Origin: a bacterium
Lineage (GTDB): Bacteria > Bacillota_I > Bacilli_A > RF39 > UBA660
DNA: 48,676 bases
Reading direction: 5' to 3'
NCBI GenBank assembly: GCA_030525085.1
Contig: JAUNFK010000005.1
Coordinates: forward strand, 1-48,676
Below, one piece after another: positions 10,573 through 42,222 of the stretch. Made by a program: the position numbers and the translations under genes. The notes below the pieces were generated by a model, which saw nothing but the letters and a program-made list of their open reading frames with translations, was not told the origin of the DNA and searched no databases. The first letter of the stretch is position 1. Each line of letters begins with the position of its first letter.

Positions 10573-10605
10573 TAAAAAAAAGATTATAAATTAATTTATA
10601 ATCTT
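10573..10605 (-). terminator. Terminator of surface paralogue A
   Basis: A perfect 26-base palindrome at 10580-10605 (arms begin AAGATTATAAATT) followed on the minus strand by seven T. It overlaps the stop codon of the gene ending at 10604. Confidence 0.8.
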
Positions 10606-12547
10606 ATTTAACGATATAAGGGTCTTCGCTTGTACCAGTTCCGCCGGATAATTGAACACTTGAATCAAGGGCAATAGAAGGTCTGATGCGTGCCTTCATA
10701 GCAACCGGGTCACAATCACTTCCAAGTAAAATGCGATTATTATTTATAACAAACATACATGCTTCAGCACCTGTAAACCAAGCAGGCGTCATCGACCAAT
10801 ATTTTATACCACCAGTATTTTCCCATAAATAATTATAATCACCATTATAAAAACCATAATTACCAGCAAATATAATCTCGTCCATTGTTAAAAGTCCAAT
10901 TTTATAATCTAATGCTCCATTTCCATTAGTTATATCACTTACCGTAAATTTAGATAAATTACCGCCATCATTGTCATTCGAACATTTTAAAGATGGTTTT
11001 ATATTATTTGAAGATGATGCTAACTCTGTTAATCGAAGAGTAGCATTATATCCATTTGCATTTGTTCCATAACCAAAATTAGTGTCATTTTTACTATTAA
11101 CGTATGGAATGTTTATTGTAGTATCAGTTACAACACTTTTATCATTACACCATATCACATCAGCTAGTTTATCTTCATATGACATCAAATTATTTTTATA
11201 CCAAGTTTCTAAATTAGTTAGCACAGTACTTTTATTTATATTAGCTTGAGCCTCTGCATAACTACTGCCACCAGCTGTCCCATACATAAATCCTACATAT
11301 GCATTATCATCACCACTTGTATTAAATACAGAGCCAGTTGCTGTGTCAGAAAATTTAGCAAATGCGCCTGTATTAAGATTATTTACAGATGAGCAGGGAC
11401 TACTTACCCCATTAAGATTATTATTATGTAATACTAATTTAACAGAGCCATTGCCGGTTATTCGTACTATCCTCCAGCACATGTTAGCAAATTCTACATA
11501 ATTATTTTTTACTGTTCCTCTAAAATAATACGAAGTGCCATAATCATCTTCGGTACTCGAAAGAAGTGCTTCAGTTACATTTTTATTAGAACGAATTTCT
11601 TTATATGTAAGACTATCTGCTGTAGCTGAAACAACATAATAAATAGTATATAAATTAGTCGTATCCCTCATTGTTCCTGCGGAAGTGGAAGAAAATTGAT
11701 AAGGTAAATATTTACCAACCAAACTAGAATATGAATTAGCATATGTATCAGTGGTTACTTCAGTTCCAGTCAAGTTTATTTTATAACCGTTTGCTTCATA
11801 TCCAGTACCATAAGTTATATAAACGTTAGTATTCGAAAAAGTATCTGTAGTACTCTCTACATCATTATAGGTATAAGCACTAGGTTCGTACCCTGGATTT
11901 GAAATAGTCTTTTGAACAACATTATCAGCAAGAATCTTTTCACTTAAAGTCGGTTCATTTGAAGCACTAGTTACTACCACTATTTTCCCTGCCCAACTTT
12001 TATTCAAGCCTTGATCTGCAGTAACTGCAGCATCCATCCATATTCTTAAATCATATGTTTTCTCTTCATTAGCTTTTAGATAAATACTACTAAGAATATA
12101 ACCTTTTCTACTATTATCTATATCAGTTAATGTTTGACCACCTAATATAACAGAAGGATTACTTGTAGTACCACCAGGAGATAAATTAACTTTAATATAA
12201 TTATCACTTAAATAAGATGAACTAGTACTAGTTCTATATTCACTATCTATTGTTATATAAGCTTTAACATAAGAAGCACAATTATTTTTTATAGTAAAAG
12301 TAAAAGGTGTTTCCTTTAGTCCGTCAGCATCCGTTAGTGGAAATGCCTCAGTTAAAGCTATCTTTTCAGTATCTTCCGTTAGCGTTGTACTAAAACATGT
12401 CCTAGATGCTATTGTATTATTTTCACTTTGACTTAAATAAAGTCTAAACCAAGCAAAAGAGACTCCAATTATACATAGAACGGTAATAAGCATTCCATAA
12501 TATACTCTAAGTCTCTTTTTATCTGCATTATTTTTGTTATTTGTCAT
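10604..12547 (-). CDS. Surface protein paralogue A: TasA-like N-terminus, Cys/Trp-rich central domain, variable-type C-terminal domain
   Basis: 647 residues. Residues 14-34 form a membrane or signal segment followed by SFAWFRLYLSQSENNTIAS, the layout of SipW-dependent TasA/camelysin proteins, and then a beta-rich domain with the NNCASYVKAYI block. The centre shares with paralogues B and C the blocks YFRGTVKNNYVEFANMCWRI, VGFMYGTAG and ADVIWCNDKS. The last ~70 residues include YWSMTP and IRPSIAL and end in GTSEDPYIVK; this resembles C-type-lectin-like or DUF6273-like domains (inference). No LPxTG is present. Codon use near the C-terminus is only slightly richer in GC than the rest. Own promoter and terminator make it a single-gene cassette between rluA-like and polC. 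Likely an envelope adhesin or sensor; ligand unknown. Confidence 0.7.
   Translation of the reverse strand: MTNNKNNADKKRLRVYYGMLITVLCIIGVSFAWFRLYLSQSENNTIASRTCFSTTLTEDTEKIALTEAFPLTDADGLKETPFTFTIKNNCASYVKAYITIDSEYRTSTSSSYLSDNYIKVNLSPGGTTSNPSVILGGQTLTDIDNSRKGYILSSIYLKANEEKTYDLRIWMDAAVTADQGLNKSWAGKIVVVTSASNEPTLSEKILADNVVQKTISNPGYEPSAYTYNDVESTTDTFSNTNVYITYGTGYEANGYKINLTGTEVTTDTYANSYSSLVGKYLPYQFSSTSAGTMRDTTNLYTIYYVVSATADSLTYKEIRSNKNVTEALLSSTEDDYGTSYYFRGTVKNNYVEFANMCWRIVRITGNGSVKLVLHNNNLNGVSSPCSSVNNLNTGAFAKFSDTATGSVFNTSGDDNAYVGFMYGTAGGSSYAEAQANINKSTVLTNLETWYKNNLMSYEDKLADVIWCNDKSVVTDTTINIPYVNSKNDTNFGYGTNANGYNATLRLTELASSSNNIKPSLKCSNDNDGGNLSKFTVSDITNGNGALDYKIGLLTMDEIIFAGNYGFYNGDYNYLWENTGGIKYWSMTPAWFTGAEACMFVINNNRILLGSDCDPVAMKARIRPSIALDSSVQLSGGTGTSEDPYIVK
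10670..10810 (-). other. C-terminal region of paralogue A corresponding to the variable region of B and C
   Basis: Encodes about residues 579-625, between YLWEN and IRPSIAL. By hand count 40 of 100 bases (10681-10780) are G or C, above the gene average, but coding-strand A is not depleted (27 per 100). It aligns by position with the GC-rich regions of B and C, but shows little sign of recent adenine mutagenesis. Confidence 0.35.
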
Positions 12548-22964: not shown

Positions 22965-22994
22965 AAAAAAAAGCCCATAAATAAAGGCTATTTT
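22965..22994 (-). terminator. Terminator of surface paralogue B
   Basis: On the minus strand AAAATAGCC and GGGCTTTTTT form a stem around a TTTATTTAT-type loop and run into eight T. It includes the stop codon of the gene. Confidence 0.65.
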
Positions 22995-25102
22995 ACAATA
23001 TATGGGTCTTCTGAGGTGCCAGAACCTCCTGAAATTGTTGTCGATGAGACGAGACTAATTGCGGGACGAACCCCAGCACCGTTGCCAACGTCGCTGGTCG
23101 CCAAATCGCCCGAGCACGTGAACCAAACGTTAGCCCCGCTGCTGTCATAGGTGTTGCGAGGCGACAAGGACCACCAACAATTACTAGTAGAATTTTCATG
23201 TAAATATGTAGAAAGATTACGAGCATAATATTCAAAACCAGAAAATGATATTTCATCAACAGTTAATAATCCGGCTTTATAAGTTAGGTTTCCATTTCCA
23301 TTTGTTGTATCATCTACAGTAAATTTAGAAAACTTTTCTCCATTATTATCATTTGGACATTTTAATGTTGGCTGTTTAGTATAAAACAATCTATTAAATG
23401 CAGCATAATCAGTTGCATTAGTTCCATACCCAAGACCTCCACTTACTGTACTTTTATCATTACACCATATTGTATCAGCAAGTTTACTTTCATATGGTGC
23501 TAAATTATTTGTATACCATGTCTCCAAATTTTTTAGTATTGTACTTTTATTAATATTTGCATGTGTACTTGCATAATCACTTGTTCCGGCAGTACCATAC
23601 ATGAAACCTACATAAGCATTATCATCAACTTTTTCATTAAATTTACTTGTATATTTTGTACCAGAGTATCTTGCAAATGCTGCATTAGTACTATTATTTG
23701 CTGAAGAGCAAGGATTAGCTACTTTTGAAGTATTATCATTGTGAAGAACAAGTTTTACTGAACCATCACCTGTTATTCTTACTATTCTCCAGCATTTACT
23801 AGCAAACTCAACATAGTTGTTTTTAACAGCTCCTCTAAAGTAGTAAGATGTTCCATAATCATCTTCTGCACTAGCAAGTAATGCTTCTGTTGTATTTTTA
23901 TTTGATGTTATTTGTTTATATGTAAAACTATTTTGTGTAGCACTTACTACATAATATACACTATTTAAATTTGTTGTTGTTTTCATTGTTCCTGCAGCGT
24001 TTGAGCCAGAACTTGATATAGATTGATATGGTAAATACTTTCCAACTAAACTAGAATATGAATTAGCATATGTAACACTTGTTACTGCTGTTCCTGTTAA
24101 ATTAAAATTAGTACCATTTGCTTCGTATCCAGTGCCATAAGTTATAAAGTATGCTTGATATGTTGATGAAACACTTGCTGTTGGTGTATAGGTTATATCA
24201 TCTTTTGTATGAGCACTTACTTCTTTTCCTGGTGTTGTAAGTGGAGTCTTAACCTCATTATTTGCTAGTATTGCATCAGCTAAAGTTGGAGGATCAAATG
24301 CTACAACGCATTTAGTATTACCACTTGTTAAGTTAGTTACACCTAAACTCCACTTAGATCCAGTCCATTTTATAGCCGCACCAATGTCTACTGTTTTATT
24401 ATTTTGAGTACATGATACTGATGCAGCATATAAACCAGTTTCTGGAAATGTGCTACTGGCCTTTCCATTTATAGTTGTTGCAATTACTAAATCATCTTTA
24501 GGTCTTGTTTTAACTGTTCCTACTACTGATATTTTAACTTGATATGTTTTATTTTCTAATTCTTCACTTGTCCAGCTAGTTTGATTTTCCCCATCTAACC
24601 ACATTCTAAAATTAAAGGTACGTGTTTCATCTTTAGTAATTCCGTCCCCTTCTTTTAAAACATAATTTTCTTTTATATTATAGCTAGATAAACTTTGAGG
24701 CGTTGAAATTTGTTTTAATGATGTTATTACAGATGGCGACATATCATTATCACCAAGTAAAGATACTTTTATATATTTAGAATCAGCACTAGTTGACGCA
24801 TTTATTACAGATGCTATTACATAATACTCTATATAGTTATCACAGTTATTTTTTACTGTAAATGTATAAGGTGTTTGTTCTAAACCTTTTAAATCCTTTA
24901 TTGGATAATTATTTGTTAAATTAATTTCATTAATACCACTAAACTCCAAGTCGATACATGTTCCAGCTAAAGTATTTGTATCAGTCTGACTGCTATAGCC
25001 AGTAAATACTGCGTAACTTACTCCTGCTAGGAGTACAATAGCAAGCAACATAACATTTAGAGTAATTAGTCTCTTTTTGTATTTTTGCATACTAGTTTTC
25101 AC
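22988..25102 (-). CDS. Surface protein paralogue B with DGR-type variable C-terminus
   Basis: 704 residues. The N-terminus has a membrane segment (about 13-31) and SYAVFTGYSSQTDTNTLAGT, as in TasA/camelysin (SipW-dependent) proteins, followed by a beta-sandwich. About residues 200-270 hold an extra repeat-like domain with two Cys (SCTQNNK, NTKCVV) that A and C lack. The shared centre has YFRGAVKNNYVEFASKCWRI, VGFMYGTAG, ADTIWCNDKS and LKCPNDN. The end, WWSLSP...GVRPAISL, is C-type-lectin- or DUF6273-like (inference), and residues 642-684 are encoded by DNA of a very different composition. Start is GTG after GGAGGAATAGGA; a weak promoter (TTTAAA-17-TATAAT) is upstream. A single-gene cassette between ffh and the 25181 gene. 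Probably a surface binding protein with a diversified ligand site. Confidence 0.72.
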   Translation of the reverse strand: MKTSMQKYKKRLITLNVMLLAIVLLAGVSYAVFTGYSSQTDTNTLAGTCIDLEFSGINEINLTNNYPIKDLKGLEQTPYTFTVKNNCDNYIEYYVIASVINASTSADSKYIKVSLLGDNDMSPSVITSLKQISTPQSLSSYNIKENYVLKEGDGITKDETRTFNFRMWLDGENQTSWTSEELENKTYQVKISVVGTVKTRPKDDLVIATTINGKASSTFPETGLYAASVSCTQNNKTVDIGAAIKWTGSKWSLGVTNLTSGNTKCVVAFDPPTLADAILANNEVKTPLTTPGKEVSAHTKDDITYTPTASVSSTYQAYFITYGTGYEANGTNFNLTGTAVTSVTYANSYSSLVGKYLPYQSISSSGSNAAGTMKTTTNLNSVYYVVSATQNSFTYKQITSNKNTTEALLASAEDDYGTSYYFRGAVKNNYVEFASKCWRIVRITGDGSVKLVLHNDNTSKVANPCSSANNSTNAAFARYSGTKYTSKFNEKVDDNAYVGFMYGTAGTSDYASTHANINKSTILKNLETWYTNNLAPYESKLADTIWCNDKSTVSGGLGYGTNATDYAAFNRLFYTKQPTLKCPNDNNGEKFSKFTVDDTTNGNGNLTYKAGLLTVDEISFSGFEYYARNLSTYLHENSTSNCWWSLSPRNTYDSSGANVWFTCSGDLATSDVGNGAGVRPAISLVSSTTISGGSGTSEDPYIVK
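23050..23180 (-). other. Putative DGR variable region in paralogue B
   Basis: Encodes about residues 642-684 of the gene at 22988. By hand count 63 of the 100 bases 23061-23160 are G or C, against about 27% in the 90 bases that follow it (23201-23290). Many codons are NNC (CGC, AAC, ACC, GAC, AGC, TTC, TGC, GGC), as expected when AAC codons of a template are randomised at A. The borders are sharp: upstream ENSTS and downstream ISGGSGTSED are again AT-rich. Confidence 0.6.
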
Positions 25103-25168: not shown

Positions 25169-25195
25169 AAAAAAGAACTATTAACAGTTTTCTTT
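25169..25195 (-). terminator. Weak terminator of the Ig/cadherin-like protein gene
   Basis: An imperfect stem around AACT-GTTAAT-AGTT extended by AAGAA/TTCTT is followed by seven T on the minus strand and overlaps the stop codon. Confidence 0.4.
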
Positions 25196-26419
25196 AATCT
25201 TTTCACTAATAGCTACTAATTTTTTCTTATTTTTAACAAGTATCAATATTATTACTAAAAACAAACCTAACGATAAAGCAGCAAGACCATAAATAATTCC
25301 TTCTTTTAAATCCTTATCCTTAACTTCTTTATTATAGTCATCGACATCAAACTTTTGCATTACTTCACCATCAAACTTATAATATGCTTCTTTACCATCT
25401 TCTAAATTAATAGCATACACTATAGTTATTTTACCATCTGTAAAAGCACTAATTTCTTTTTCATTAATCGTAACTGTTTTAGAAGTAAAACCATTTATTC
25501 TATCCTTTGGTGTTACAAAAACTAATGTAAGCCTCTTAGTTAAATATTCATCATAGCTCTTATATTTACCGTCATCATATATAAATAAACTTATATTACC
25601 ACTTTCATCTTTTAATCCAACTAAAGTATATCCAGTTGTTTCATTCTTAAATGCCGGAATATCAAATTCACCAATTTTTACAGTAGCTTCTTCAAACAAC
25701 TCTGGCTTAGTCAAATTTTTACTTTCCTTAACAACAGTATACTTTTTATTATCAACTGTAACCTCAATTGGATTTTGATCTAAAACATTAACCTTTAAAG
25801 AATAAATATTCGCTACTCCCGTTTCACTCGTTACAGTAATGTCAAAAGTATTAACACCTTCACTAACTTCTTTTTCACCTGTACCACTTATAGAAGAATA
25901 TGAGTCTTCTTTAGTTGCTATAATATTAATCTTACTAACAGTAGAAGGAACACTAACTGTATACTCACTAGTCTTTTTATCAAAAGCTGGACTTATCTCA
26001 TAACCTTCAACTGACAAACTTTTTAAATAATTATTACTAGATTTTTCTCTAGGCTTTACAACAGATACATTTCTAGACCCACTTACAGTAATATTATTAC
26101 CACTAGCATCAGTAATATCCCCAGTCATTGTAAAATTAATTGTTCCAATACTCGTTGCTTTACAAGTAACAGTAAAATACTTCGTCGTATTCTGACCATT
26201 ACTAGTAGCATCCGCAAACTTCTGCGTGCATCCACTAGTAGCTCCACTAGAAGATATTTTTATATTCCAAGCAGCTGTACTCTTAACTGTAACAGTTGCA
26301 CTAACTGAGCCACCATTTTCAACGCTACTCTTATTAACTGAAATACTTGCACTTGGTGCAGCATAAACTACAGAAAGATTAAACCCTAAACAAAATATAA
26401 ACATTAATAACTTTTTCAT
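25181..26419 (-). CDS. Membrane-anchored protein with Ig-like and cadherin-like domains
   Basis: 412 residues. Signal peptide at 1-20 (cleavage near VVYAAPSA), an Ig-like beta domain (about 22-120, Ser/Thr-rich, with two cysteines likely disulfide-bonded), a cadherin-like beta-sandwich (about 130-210, beginning LKSLSVEGYEISPAFDKKTS), a further beta domain, and one C-terminal membrane helix (about 378-400) with a basic cytoplasmic tail. It is externally exposed and tethered in the membrane. It starts 12 bases after the dockerin-bearing glucosaminidase, after AGGAG, so the two are co-expressed and may interact. A cohesin function is only a guess. Confidence 0.7.
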   Translation of the reverse strand: MKKLLMFIFCLGFNLSVVYAAPSASISVNKSSVENGGSVSATVTVKSTAAWNIKISSSGATSGCTQKFADATSNGQNTTKYFTVTCKATSIGTINFTMTGDITDASGNNITVSGSRNVSVVKPREKSSNNYLKSLSVEGYEISPAFDKKTSEYTVSVPSTVSKINIIATKEDSYSSISGTGEKEVSEGVNTFDITVTSETGVANIYSLKVNVLDQNPIEVTVDNKKYTVVKESKNLTKPELFEEATVKIGEFDIPAFKNETTGYTLVGLKDESGNISLFIYDDGKYKSYDEYLTKRLTLVFVTPKDRINGFTSKTVTINEKEISAFTDGKITIVYAINLEDGKEAYYKFDGEVMQKFDVDDYNKEVKDKDLKEGIIYGLAALSLGLFLVIILILVKNKKKLVAISEKIKENC

Positions 26420-26431
26420 AAAAACTCCTTT

Positions 26432-28147
26432 TTATCCCTGATTTATCAAATATTGTCTTAACTTTAATAAATCTGCTGAATTAATACTTGTTCCACCAGC
26501 CATTGATGCAGCTTTCAAATATGAACCACTAAGCATATTAGTCTCAAGTAGATGCTGACGAACCTTTAATAAATCTGCTGAATTTATAATTCCGTCACCA
26601 TTAACATCCCCCATTAATACATACTCATAAACTTCATTTTGATTACCATTAATGCATTCTATCTTCATTCCAGTACCTAATAAACTATCACCTAATACTT
26701 CTTCTCCATTATCTCTTTTAACAGTTATTTTAGCATTACCTGTAGCTTTACTAGTTATTTCACTTACCTTTGTTCCTGGATAATATCCACTATAATAATT
26801 TCCGTTTTGTGTTAGATTAAGTAAACTTATAAAGTCTATTTTAACATTTTCATCTTTACCATCACTTGGACCAGGTTCTACTGGTACATCAATCTTAGAA
26901 CCATTATTCTTGCCCTTACCACCATTAGCGAATACTAAACCAGCTAAAGCCGGATTAGACTCACCACTGCTAGCACCTATATTATAAAAATTATATAATC
27001 CAGAATAAGTATATCCTTCATAAGTAAATTCTGCTCCATTTGTAGTATTAGATAACTTTGTTCCAGCCTCTTGTCTTGACAAACTAGCCAGATATAAAGC
27101 AGATACTTTAGCATACCTACCAGCTTCTAAAAATAATGATGAATACGTTTTATTACTAATCGGTTCTATATTATCCATAAAAGTGCCAAAAAGAACACCT
27201 TTAATTAAACTCTCATCAACTTCTCTAAAACCTAAATTCTCAAACATAAAGATATATCTTTCATTTAAGAAATTACGTGGATCTAAGAAGAACGCAACAG
27301 CTTCCCTAGTAGCAATACACCATCCTTTTTCAGTAACATATTGTGGTTGAGCACAATGACCACTACTAATTTCAATACTACTAACATTATTTTCAACAGT
27401 AACACCTTCATAAAAATCATAATTTGTTTTCATTGGTGTAAAAGTCCAATTACTATGAATACTATGAATATATCTTAAATATGGTTTATAACTATCTGGA
27501 AATCCTTTAATAGATTCTTCAAAAGCTTCATCTGCTACAGTATCAATCCTATTAAGCTCTATCTCTTTAAACTTACTATCATATGTAGTTTCAGGCATAT
27601 TTTCAAAATATGGTATTACAAAATCATAAGCTTCATTTAATTTGTTATTCTTACTTAATGAATTATAAGTAGTCGATGCTTCACTAGATGGTGCCCTTAA
27701 ATTAGCCATATACTCATGGTTAAACTGAGGATAATAACCTTCAGGATTAACATTAAACTTCTTCAAATAAGAAGTATACTGGCCTTTAGAAATATAACCA
27801 CTACTAATAAATAACGCTCCACCCGTAATTGCTTTAGCTGGCGTATTCCATGGTCTTTCATAAGATGTACTTTGCTCACCAACTACTCCAACTAATGATG
27901 AACAAACATAGCCATACTCACCACTATAATAAATATAAAACCAAGGTTTCCCACAACCATTCCCAGCTGGAGTGTCCTGATTAATAATTTCGAATTCAGC
28001 ACCCTTAGGTATTTCCATAATCTTTTTTACTGAACTATCTGTAGAAGGTTTATCTCTCATAGTAACCTGACTTTTAACATAACCAGTATCAGCAAAAACA
28101 TTTACATATAGACATGACAAAAATAAAAATAATAATAACTTCTTCAT
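26432..28147 (-). CDS. Secreted SH3-domain N-acetylglucosaminidase-like protein with C-terminal dockerin-like repeats
   Basis: 571 residues. Signal peptide 1-19; an SH3b domain (about 22-90) for wall binding; a central region with the block FLDPRNFLNERYIFMFE (about 288-304) and SRQEAG, typical of clostridial endo-beta-N-acetylglucosaminidases that cut peptidoglycan glycan strands; a Pro/Gly linker (about 425-435); a beta domain; and at the end two dockerin-like repeats. The first repeat has the calcium loop DVNGDGIINSADL; the second keeps SINSADLLKLRQYL but lacks the acidic first half. ATG 28147 follows AGGGTG. It heads a two-gene unit with the Ig/cadherin-like protein. Likely a cell-wall hydrolase or remodelling enzyme. 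Confidence 0.78.
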   Translation of the reverse strand: MKKLLLFLFLSCLYVNVFADTGYVKSQVTMRDKPSTDSSVKKIMEIPKGAEFEIINQDTPAGNGCGKPWFYIYYSGEYGYVCSSLVGVVGEQSTSYERPWNTPAKAITGGALFISSGYISKGQYTSYLKKFNVNPEGYYPQFNHEYMANLRAPSSEASTTYNSLSKNNKLNEAYDFVIPYFENMPETTYDSKFKEIELNRIDTVADEAFEESIKGFPDSYKPYLRYIHSIHSNWTFTPMKTNYDFYEGVTVENNVSSIEISSGHCAQPQYVTEKGWCIATREAVAFFLDPRNFLNERYIFMFENLGFREVDESLIKGVLFGTFMDNIEPISNKTYSSLFLEAGRYAKVSALYLASLSRQEAGTKLSNTTNGAEFTYEGYTYSGLYNFYNIGASSGESNPALAGLVFANGGKGKNNGSKIDVPVEPGPSDGKDENVKIDFISLLNLTQNGNYYSGYYPGTKVSEITSKATGNAKITVKRDNGEEVLGDSLLGTGMKIECINGNQNEVYEYVLMGDVNGDGIINSADLLKVRQHLLETNMLSGSYLKAASMAGGTSINSADLLKLRQYLINQG

Positions 28148-28178
28148 TTTCATCACCCTACCTCAGCACTAGTATACC

Positions 28179-37960: not shown

Positions 37961-39523
37961 CTAAACCACTTTGTATGGATTTTCACTTGTACCAACACCA
38001 GTTACAGTAACAGATGCTTTAAGAGAAATCGAAGGACGGACACCGAGACTGCTACCGACACCACCGTTGACGTAGAAGAAACCACTCGAACCGGCAACGT
38101 ACCAAACACGAGCGCGTAAACCAGCGAAATCAACAGGAGACATAGAACTCCACAGAACATCGGTAGCATTTTCTTGCAAGTAAGTAGTTGTATTATTCTG
38201 AGCAAAAGCATAACCAGCAAATGCAAGTTCATCTGCTGTTATTAAGCCTATCTTTGTTGTTATTTCACTCAATCCTTTATTACATTTTAAACTTGGACCA
38301 GTTCCACCAGCACTACCGCTTGCACTGACTAATCGTTTAGTAGCACCATAATAAGTTACATTTCTAGCATATCCTAAACCAGTTGGGAACGAAACAAGCG
38401 GAGCATATGTTGTATCTGTTATATTAGTTTTATCATTACACCATACTGTATCTGATATTTTGTCTTCAAATAGCACAAGATTATTACTATACCATGTTTC
38501 TAAGTTTGTTAGAATTGTACTTTTATTTGTATTTGCATGGGTGCTTGCATAATCTGATGCTCCCACTGTTCCATACATAAATCCCACATATGCGTTGTCC
38601 CTTTCATTCGTATTAAATGCACTTTTGTATGTTGTCCCAGAATATCTTGCAAATGCCGCACTAATATCATTATTTGCTGATGAGCATGGACTAGCAACGC
38701 CTGTTGTATTATCATTATGTAAAATAAGCTTTACTGTACCATCCCCATTAATTCTCACAATTCTCCAACACTTATTTGCAAATTCTACATAATTATTCTT
38801 AACATTACCTCTAAAATAATAACTTGTTCCATAATTATCTTCTGTACTTGATAAAAGAGCCTCACTAGCAATAGACACTGTTGTTCCTGGTGTAGTAACA
38901 GGCACTTTAACTTCATTGTTATATAATACTAATTCTGATAACACTCCATTGATTTTAGGGGCTTTAGTACTTTCAATTTCTACATGTGCACTAAATTCTG
39001 CACCTTGATTTGCATTTTGGCTAATAGTTTTTTTGGGGTAATATATCTTTAAAAGATATGTATGTTTAGCATTACTTGCTTTTGCAAAGTATCCCTTATT
39101 TAAATCAATAGACAAACCAGTGATATCAGTTTTATTTACTGAAGGTATCACCTCTCCATTTGTACTTGTATTAGTACTTACTAATTCATATTGTAATGGA
39201 TCAGATGTTTTAAATGTATTTAAGTCTACTACTAAAGTAAGTTTGTAGTACATTTCTGCATCTGTTGTATTATTTCCAGTTACAGTAATATTTTTAGTAG
39301 CCCATACTTCATCCCTTGGATATATTCCATCAAGACTAATATTTTTCCCACCATCATATGTTATTTTCATAGTTCCCGCGTCTGCTCTAACTGTAGTTGA
39401 TGTTTCTGAGGATAATCCAGCCGTGAAGAAAGCGTAAGAAATTCCAGCTACGCAGATAAGTGATATAACCATTGCATAAATCATTATTTTCTTCGGCATT
39501 TTTTGTTTTCTTTCTTGGCTCAT
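37961..39523 (-). CDS. Surface protein paralogue C with DGR-type variable C-terminus and phase-variable-type promoter
   Basis: 520 residues, the shortest of three paralogues. N-terminal membrane segment (about 13-31) and SYAFFTAGLSSETSTTVRAD as in TasA/camelysin proteins, then a beta-sandwich to about residue 200. It joins the shared central domain directly after NEVKVPVTTPGT, lacking about 90 residues (the YEANG and KYLPYQ region) that A and B have, which suggests recombination between paralogues. YFRGNVKNNYVEFANKCWRI, VGFMYGTVG and SDTVWCNDKT follow. The end, LWSSMSP...GVRPSISL, is encoded by strongly A-depleted, GC-rich DNA. Start ATG after AGGGATT. Monocistronic between pgsA-like and the SPFH gene. 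Probable surface adhesin or receptor. Confidence 0.73.
   Translation of the reverse strand: MSQERKQKMPKKIMIYAMVISLICVAGISYAFFTAGLSSETSTTVRADAGTMKITYDGGKNISLDGIYPRDEVWATKNITVTGNNTTDAEMYYKLTLVVDLNTFKTSDPLQYELVSTNTSTNGEVIPSVNKTDITGLSIDLNKGYFAKASNAKHTYLLKIYYPKKTISQNANQGAEFSAHVEIESTKAPKINGVLSELVLYNNEVKVPVTTPGTTVSIASEALLSSTEDNYGTSYYFRGNVKNNYVEFANKCWRIVRINGDGTVKLILHNDNTTGVASPCSSANNDISAAFARYSGTTYKSAFNTNERDNAYVGFMYGTVGASDYASTHANTNKSTILTNLETWYSNNLVLFEDKISDTVWCNDKTNITDTTYAPLVSFPTGLGYARNVTYYGATKRLVSASGSAGGTGPSLKCNKGLSEITTKIGLITADELAFAGYAFAQNNTTTYLQENATDVLWSSMSPVDFAGLRARVWYVAGSSGFFYVNGGVGSSLGVRPSISLKASVTVTGVGTSENPYKVV
38030..38165 (-). other. Putative DGR variable region in paralogue C
   Basis: Encodes about residues 453-498. 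Of the 100 bases 38041-38140, 54 are G or C, and on the coding strand only 9 are A while 37 are T (hand counts). Codons are dominated by NNC and NNT (TTC, CGC, TAC, GCC, GTC, AGC, CTC). The position, directly before GVRPSISL and before the last ~25 codons, is the same as in paralogue B. Loss of A on the coding strand is what adenine-directed mutagenesis would leave. Confidence 0.65.
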
Positions 39524-41350: not shown

Positions 41351-42222
41351 TATCTCATCCTTTGACCAATACAAGTTTTCTTACTCATTACATAATCCTT
41401 TGGTCCGACAACAATTGTACTACCACAGTACTCACACTTGCCACCAGCTACACCTTCAAATGGAGCTCCACAATTAGGACATTTCTCTTCAGAAGATTCA
41501 CTAGCTTTAACAAATGTAATTGAGTACTCAATATCAATTTTATGATTATCTTTTCCTCTAACTGTTTTCTTATCATTATCAACAACATAATCATACATAG
41601 CAGTATGAAGATATACTGTTACATTTACCATTCCAGACTCTTCAGTAACATTTGTAATCTTAACATCAATATACTCAAAGTCCTTCATAATATTTTGTTG
41701 TCCTTTAACCTTTAAGGCATCAAGTTGCATCACATAACTATTATATAATTCATCAGTTAAATGCTTTCTAAGACCATCATAATCAAAATTCATCCACTCG
41801 TTTTGAATTGATTTATATAACTCAAAGGCTAACTTTTTAAACTCATCAGCACTCATACCAATCTTCTTTAATCTATCATCCTTTATATCAGAATAATTGT
41901 TAAAGCTTCTGCTTGATGATGAACCACTGCCACCTTTACCACCACGGTTATTATTGTTTACAATTACATAAATTACGATAATCATTATAACAGTAAAAGC
42001 TATTAAACTTGCTAAACTAGTATCCCCAGAATAACTTCCACCAGATGACGAACTCCAACTACTTCCTGAATCCCAACTGCTGCCAGAGTCCCAGCTTCCA
42101 CCTGAATCCCAGCCACCGCCAGAATCATAACTTGAATCCCAGCCACTATCAGCTTTAACCAAACTAACCCCAGAAAATAACATTCCAATAACTGTTAAAA
42201 ATATTATAAACTTCTTTTTCAT
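41350..42222 (-). CDS. Membrane Tim44-like protein with Gly/Ser/Trp/Asp repeats and zinc ribbon
   Basis: 290 residues. Signal peptide at 1-24; a low-complexity repeat of WDSGS type (about 26-60, for example GGSWDSGSSWDSGSSW); a membrane helix at about 72-88; a second Gly/Ser-rich stretch; a Tim44-like domain (about 125-240); and a zinc ribbon (CPNCGAPF then CEYCGSTI). The low-complexity part faces outside if the helix is the anchor, leaving the Tim44-like and zinc-ribbon parts in the cytoplasm next to the SPFH scaffold. Overlaps the next gene by one base. Confidence 0.72.
   Translation of the reverse strand: MKKKFIIFLTVIGMLFSGVSLVKADSGWDSSYDSGGGWDSGGSWDSGSSWDSGSSWSSSSGGSYSGDTSLASLIAFTVIMIIVIYVIVNNNNRGGKGGSGSSSSRSFNNYSDIKDDRLKKIGMSADEFKKLAFELYKSIQNEWMNFDYDGLRKHLTDELYNSYVMQLDALKVKGQQNIMKDFEYIDVKITNVTEESGMVNVTVYLHTAMYDYVVDNDKKTVRGKDNHKIDIEYSITFVKASESSEEKCPNCGAPFEGVAGGKCEYCGSTIVVGPKDYVMSKKTCIGQRMR

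Follow-up and report, generated by a model that had tools for sequence, protein, structure and literature searches.

The GC-rich segment at positions 23050-23180 is very probably the variable region (VR) of a gene that is, or recently was, the target of a diversity-generating retroelement (DGR), a natural targeted-mutation system. The sequences of sister species show complete machinery, its templates and members of this protein family rewritten at adenines, and four paralogues in the window's own assembly carry the matching island and bias. With homologues written in this way in two species, G001 and G003, the original prediction of a DGR target is largely, though not in every part, supported.

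The target would encode an exported surface-type protein that shows variable residues on a C-terminal DUF6273-like (C-type-lectin-like) domain. The DGR unit of the lineage would comprise a template repeat (TR) RNA, Avd, a MutS-domain-I-like accessory protein and a DGR reverse transcriptase (RT), copying an AAC/AAT-rich template while misreading its adenines. Acting in trans, the resulting cDNA would replace the matching stretch of several paralogues scattered over the genome, and, this genome being AT-rich, the change of AAC to NNC would leave a sharp GC-rich, NNC-rich island. We infer that a unit of this kind exists, or existed until recently, in the source species, outside the 85% of the genome that was assembled; putative ligands of the diversified face may be carried by other cells, by host surfaces or by phages.

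A GC-rich island at the 3' end of the target gene

The host is a gut/rumen-type bacterium with a small, AT-rich genome. The target gene (22988..25102, minus strand; paralogue B of the original prediction), a 704-aa ORF with homologues, encodes a SipW-type-like signal/N-terminal helix, a beta-sandwich N-terminal region and a C-terminal DUF6273-like domain (residues ~405-704). The hydrophobic N-terminal helix terminates in GVSYA, and the C-terminal domain terminates in ...CWWSLSPRNTYDSSGANVWFTCSGDLATSDVGNGAGVRPAISL.... The VR (23050..23180, minus strand), spanning codons ~642-684 of 704, runs from CWWSLSP (codon 642) to GVRPAISL (GGG GTT CGT CCC GCA ATT AGT CTC), close to the C-terminus. It is 62% GC and NNC-rich, contrasts with its flanks in identity, and mismatches the G001 template in an A-biased manner.

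Recounting gave exactly 63 G/C in 23061-23160 and 26.7% GC in 23201-23290, reproducing the 63 and ~27% reported earlier. No other 120-bp segment in the 48.7-kb window (the whole stretch of DNA that was analysed; mean GC 30.2%, sd 5.3%) is as GC-rich as 23061-23180, at 61.7% (z 5.9). GC3 in the VR reaches 0.74 and NNC codons 45%, against a GC3 of 0.09 in the remaining domain; the island described as sharp-bordered and NNC-rich ahead of GVRPAISL is the GC maximum of the window. The second GC peak, at 38034-38153 (54%), falls on the equivalent site in another paralogue. A third (42025-42144) belongs to the gene of an exported protein outside the family, where it encodes a GWDSGSSWDSG repeat.

Sharp borders and a composition foreign to the genome would also result from an assembly chimera or from a GC-rich segment acquired horizontally. 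The reading frame and the family consensus WWxLSP...GVRPAISL, however, continue through the island, and other paralogues, as well as sister species, have islands of this kind at the equivalent site, making such an origin scarcely credible. Upstream of the target, 25181-28156 encodes a membrane protein with a cadherin-like domain and a second protein that has SH3/dockerin domains and partly matches a glucosaminidase, which suggests a surface-protein neighbourhood.

The variable region lies in a DUF6273-like domain

DUF6273 is matched by 18 of 55 family members (best E 2.6e-7), with the target gene itself matching weakly (E 0.03). The AlphaFold2 model of residues 400-704 (pLDDT 93, pTM 0.91) has several DUF6273 proteins among its best viral fold matches; in the PDB it matches an IgA peptidase of Thomasclavelia (E 3e-5), and its matches to C-type-lectin domains are weak. 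DUF6273 is reported to be the domain that DGRs target in Faecalibacterium prophages and in metagenomic gut phages (PMC11792537, PMC10743442), and its fold is described as C-type-lectin-like (PMC10743442). Within this domain, the VR sits near the 3' end of the gene, in agreement with the predicted placement in a C-type-lectin fold near the C-terminus.

The N-terminal part of the target has no Pfam or NCBIfam match, and its model (pLDDT 77) forms a beta-sandwich weakly matching Pyrobaculum bundling pili (E 0.01). The TasA-like surface anchor proposed for this region is at most a possible relationship, the evidence being a weak TapA-like match (E 0.05) in one paralogue, at 37961-39523, and low-confidence fold matches.

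A family of paralogues with four GC-rich variable regions

The window's own assembly (G000) comprises 942,075 bases in 32 contigs and is 84.9% complete. A protein search with the C-terminal domain returned 25 matches, 24 of them within long open frames totalling ~43 kb, or 4.5% of the assembled genome; the target gene has ~23 paralogues in 0.94 Mb. Three family members lie within the window (22988, 37961 and 10604). In an alignment of 20 paralogues, pairwise identity averages 0.26 within the VR and 0.60 on each side of it; VR lengths vary by indels. Most VRs have low, ordinary GC, the four exceptions being those of the target gene, of the window gene at 37961-39523, and of C10:1546 and C30:22400.

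The second window paralogue (37961..39523, minus strand; 520 aa; homologue match 37967-38776) carries its GC-rich VR at 38034..38153 (minus strand; 54% GC), which departs from a sister-species TR at 25/33 A and 22/80 non-A positions (p 2.7e-6). The third (10604..12547, minus strand; 647 aa) has a VR at ~10620-10739 whose GC, at 47%, is only mildly raised and which lacks A-bias; it is an ameliorated former target or a non-target. No syntenic orthologue of the target gene was found in the sister species for flank comparison, the ffh matches being only ~33% identical.

A lone, frameshifted C-terminal family fragment sits between two unrelated genes at L024 6270-6490 (G000:C11:14270-14490, minus strand) and is a pseudogene remnant. 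It was rejected as a template, being AT-rich, including upstream gene sequence and having no RT nearby.

DGR units in sister species

The DGR unit of G001, a species of the same genus, lies near rpsJ/rplC and is arranged as a template repeat (L070 ~393-515), a MutS-domain-I-like ORF, an Avd-like ORF, the RT and two target-family genes. The RT, 366 aa long, contains IGNMTSQ and YMDD, and its closest solved structure is 8ub7 (PDB 'Reverse transcriptase', E 1.2e-22), which we take to be the Bordetella phage BPP-1 DGR complex. The Avd-like protein matches NF033474 (E 3.2e-6) and PF22296 (6.7e-5), both below the curated cut-off, and the MutS_I-like protein matches PF01624 above it. A phage origin of the RT was rejected, since its viral relatives are distant (<=34% identity) and the G001 unit lies near rpsJ/rplC.

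One template repeat and ~10 VRs are present genome-wide in G001. The best VR differs from the template at 19 of 34 A positions and 1 of 84 others, and the A-bias is significant in all nine VRs tested (p 4e-4 to 4e-14). G001 thus combines an RT with the SQ motif, an Avd (match below the curated cut-off), a TR and A-specific VRs. G003, also of this genus, likewise has a DGR locus that encodes a MutS-like protein, an Avd-like protein and an RT next to template repeats. A VR of G003, compared with its own TR, is changed at 22/36 A and 2/82 non-A positions. At the level of sequence, these patterns demonstrate adenine-directed writing into the target protein family in both species.

The small MutS-domain-I-like protein of G001 (L070 685-1116, G001:C25) is encoded between the template and Avd, with a comparable ORF in G003:C11. 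Its putative role may be that of an accessory acting on mismatched cDNA, aiding repair survival or binding the hybrid. Three DGR units of the genus share a conserved sequence, AGAGAAACAAGYATAKTCC, on the 3' side of the template (L070 570-600 and its equivalents in L071 and L072); it is possibly part of the template RNA required for priming; the region 3' of the G001 template folds no more stably than shuffled sequences (z +1.1). Matches to this RNA motif at G001:C36 and G003:C21 fall within ordinary genes and were set aside as chance.

Three tandem template copies stand upstream of one DGR unit in G003:C11 (L071 2288-2993), with the conserved 3' motif only on the copy nearest the genes. TRb and TRc differ at 11 sites, 7 of which are A in TRc, and TRa and TRc differ by insertions, the in-frame insertions of the copies measuring 6 and 3 bases. 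The array is a template duplication, perhaps of mutagenised templates, and its length differences could, hypothetically, underlie the VR length differences in the family. A second, decayed DGR in G003:C84 (L072 4100-7650) adjoins a transposase; its RT is broken by TAA, its template is shortened and its target stops early in CARPFL.

Adenine bias links the sister templates to the GC-rich islands

Compared with the heterologous G001 TR, the target-gene VR differs at 21 of 33 A positions and 20 of 78 others (p 2e-4); against the best-scoring TR, also from another species, p is 0.03, and 20-23 non-A mismatches remain across TRs. The predicted A-directed mutation is supported by the first comparison and less clearly by the second, and this step, which uses another species' template, is the weakest link in the sequence argument. 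Against heterologous TRs, the four GC-rich VRs of G000 yield log odds of 0.89-2.05, whereas the other 20 range from about -0.6 to 0.75 (Mann-Whitney p 9e-5).

The same coupling of composition and bias appears in G001, where VRs with GC >=0.49 show A-bias at p < 1e-3 in 9/9 genes and those with lower GC in 1/10. The G001 template has a GC of 0.49 and its VRs 0.49-0.61, random rewriting of AAC into NNC leading to higher GC.

The ~24 paralogues might instead have diverged without a retroelement, by gene conversion or under ordinary diversifying selection; this would suit a large paralogous family, the indel differences in VR length and the orphan C-terminal fragment on C11. Neither process predicts that change relative to a separate non-coding template beside a DGR RT is restricted to adenines, or that A-bias goes with GC-richness, and a gene-conversion donor for the target-gene VR is absent from the assembly; we consider this account improbable.

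Diversification by a DGR need not have drawn on one template. The four GC-rich VRs of G000 disagree at non-A, synonymous positions toward their 3' ends, so that they were probably not all derived from one template, and a single template for all four was discarded as unlikely. We tentatively entertain, while leaning against it, a fuller reading in which a multi-template chromosomal DGR with templates of differing length diversifies a ~24-gene surface-lectin family in trans in a genome-reduced bacterium, one retroelement keeping a variable-receptor repertoire with differing loop lengths. If true, a ~24-gene DGR repertoire would resemble multigene antigenic variation.

Search for the machinery in the assembly

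Searches for a DGR RT and for a 100-140 base template repeat, the check attached to the original prediction, recovered neither from the G000 assembly. A DGR RT is absent by PF00078 and by sister-species protein searches of this 84.9% complete assembly, and searches with the sister-species MSL-Avd-RT proteins found neither Avd nor the MutS-like accessory (MSL) there. The sister-species template gave nothing convincing against G000. A template pattern that accepted A or the VR's own base at each position and tolerated as many as 3 mismatches recovered only the VR itself in G000 and had no match in viral contigs; under the same rule the best G001 pair leaves one mismatch, so the pattern is adequate. 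The conserved RNA motif 3' of the template was not found in the 942 kb of G000.

The G000 contig with rpsJ breaks off ~270 bp upstream of that gene, on the side occupied by the DGR and targets in G001. Given this contig end and the 84.9% completeness, absence from the assembly is weak evidence for absence from the genome. As the assembled part yields neither RT nor template repeat, the proposed retroelement elsewhere in the genome is a putative one.

An ancestral DGR may instead have written the VR, with RT and template since lost and the gene frozen. Such a history is a sub-case of the preferred explanation as regards origin and a rival to it as regards present activity. It would account for the joint absence of RT, Avd, MSL, TR and 3' RNA motif from 942 kb; Treponema denticola strains without RT and TR retain target genes (PMC4891356), and 20 of the 24 paralogues lack the island or A-bias, as decayed targets would. 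The incompleteness of the assembly and the position of the rpsJ contig end weigh against it, as does the island itself, which remains sharp, open-reading and unameliorated. We rate loss of the machinery as unlikely, though a serious contender.

The sole RT of G000 was rejected as a DGR RT; it is of retron Ec107/St85 type (NF038233 E 2e-66, RT_Ec107-like E 2e-124) and lacks the SQ motif. Located at L023 7143-8608 (G000:C32), it adjoins a HAD-phosphatase-like ORF, and this retron is likely anti-phage.

Relation to known DGR systems

Cellular DGRs with multiple and remote targets are known, including strains with targets but without RT (PMC4891356, PMC3521204, PMC10907252). The DGR of T. denticola, which has as many as seven lipoprotein-type targets at dispersed sites (PMC4891356), resembles the present case in being cellular rather than phage-borne, in having several remote surface-protein targets and in the occurrence of strains with targets but without RT/TR. 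Different in the present case are the ~10 VRs of G001, the family of 23-24 paralogues in G000, the DUF6273-like domain and the MutS-domain-I-like accessory gene of the unit. The DUF6273 targets of Faecalibacterium prophages and of phages nd4/nd12, including tentaclins, share the domain family (PMC11792537, PMC10743442), and in the Faecalibacterium prophage targets the VR likewise lies at the DUF6273 C-terminus. Those targets belong to phages and mostly occur singly or in pairs, whereas the genes described here are chromosomal, exported and present as many paralogues, and the G001 unit stands beside ribosomal-protein genes. With the BPP-1 DGR (8ub7), the sister-species units have in common the RT family, the Avd-like partner and the TR/VR logic, but RT similarity is distant (E 1e-22), targets are in trans and an extra MutS_I-like protein is present.

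Like the cellular DGR targets of the global survey by Roux et al. 2021 (PMC8144416), the family consists of signal-peptide or membrane-anchored binding proteins. The combination of a surface anchor with a DGR domain, earlier thought little described, is therefore not new in kind, surface-type targets with signal peptides being already known. The target is a known kind of DGR target, and what is notable is the size of the target family and the host lineage. The main text of that survey does not mention Tenericutes, Mollicutes or RF39, and a search on limited terms found no paper on DGRs in this lineage, though one may exist.

The compositional island alone flagged the target gene without assembled machinery, and comparison with sister species explains the island. 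As the rule held for 9/9 islands in G001, 3'-end GC/NNC islands in surface-protein genes of AT-rich genomes may mark DGR targets in incomplete metagenome assemblies. The target family also provides a cellular DGR system, with numerous targets in trans, in Bacilli of small genome size; of 386 genomes in this bacterial family, 130, about one third, contain related DGR-type RTs (E <= 1e-20).
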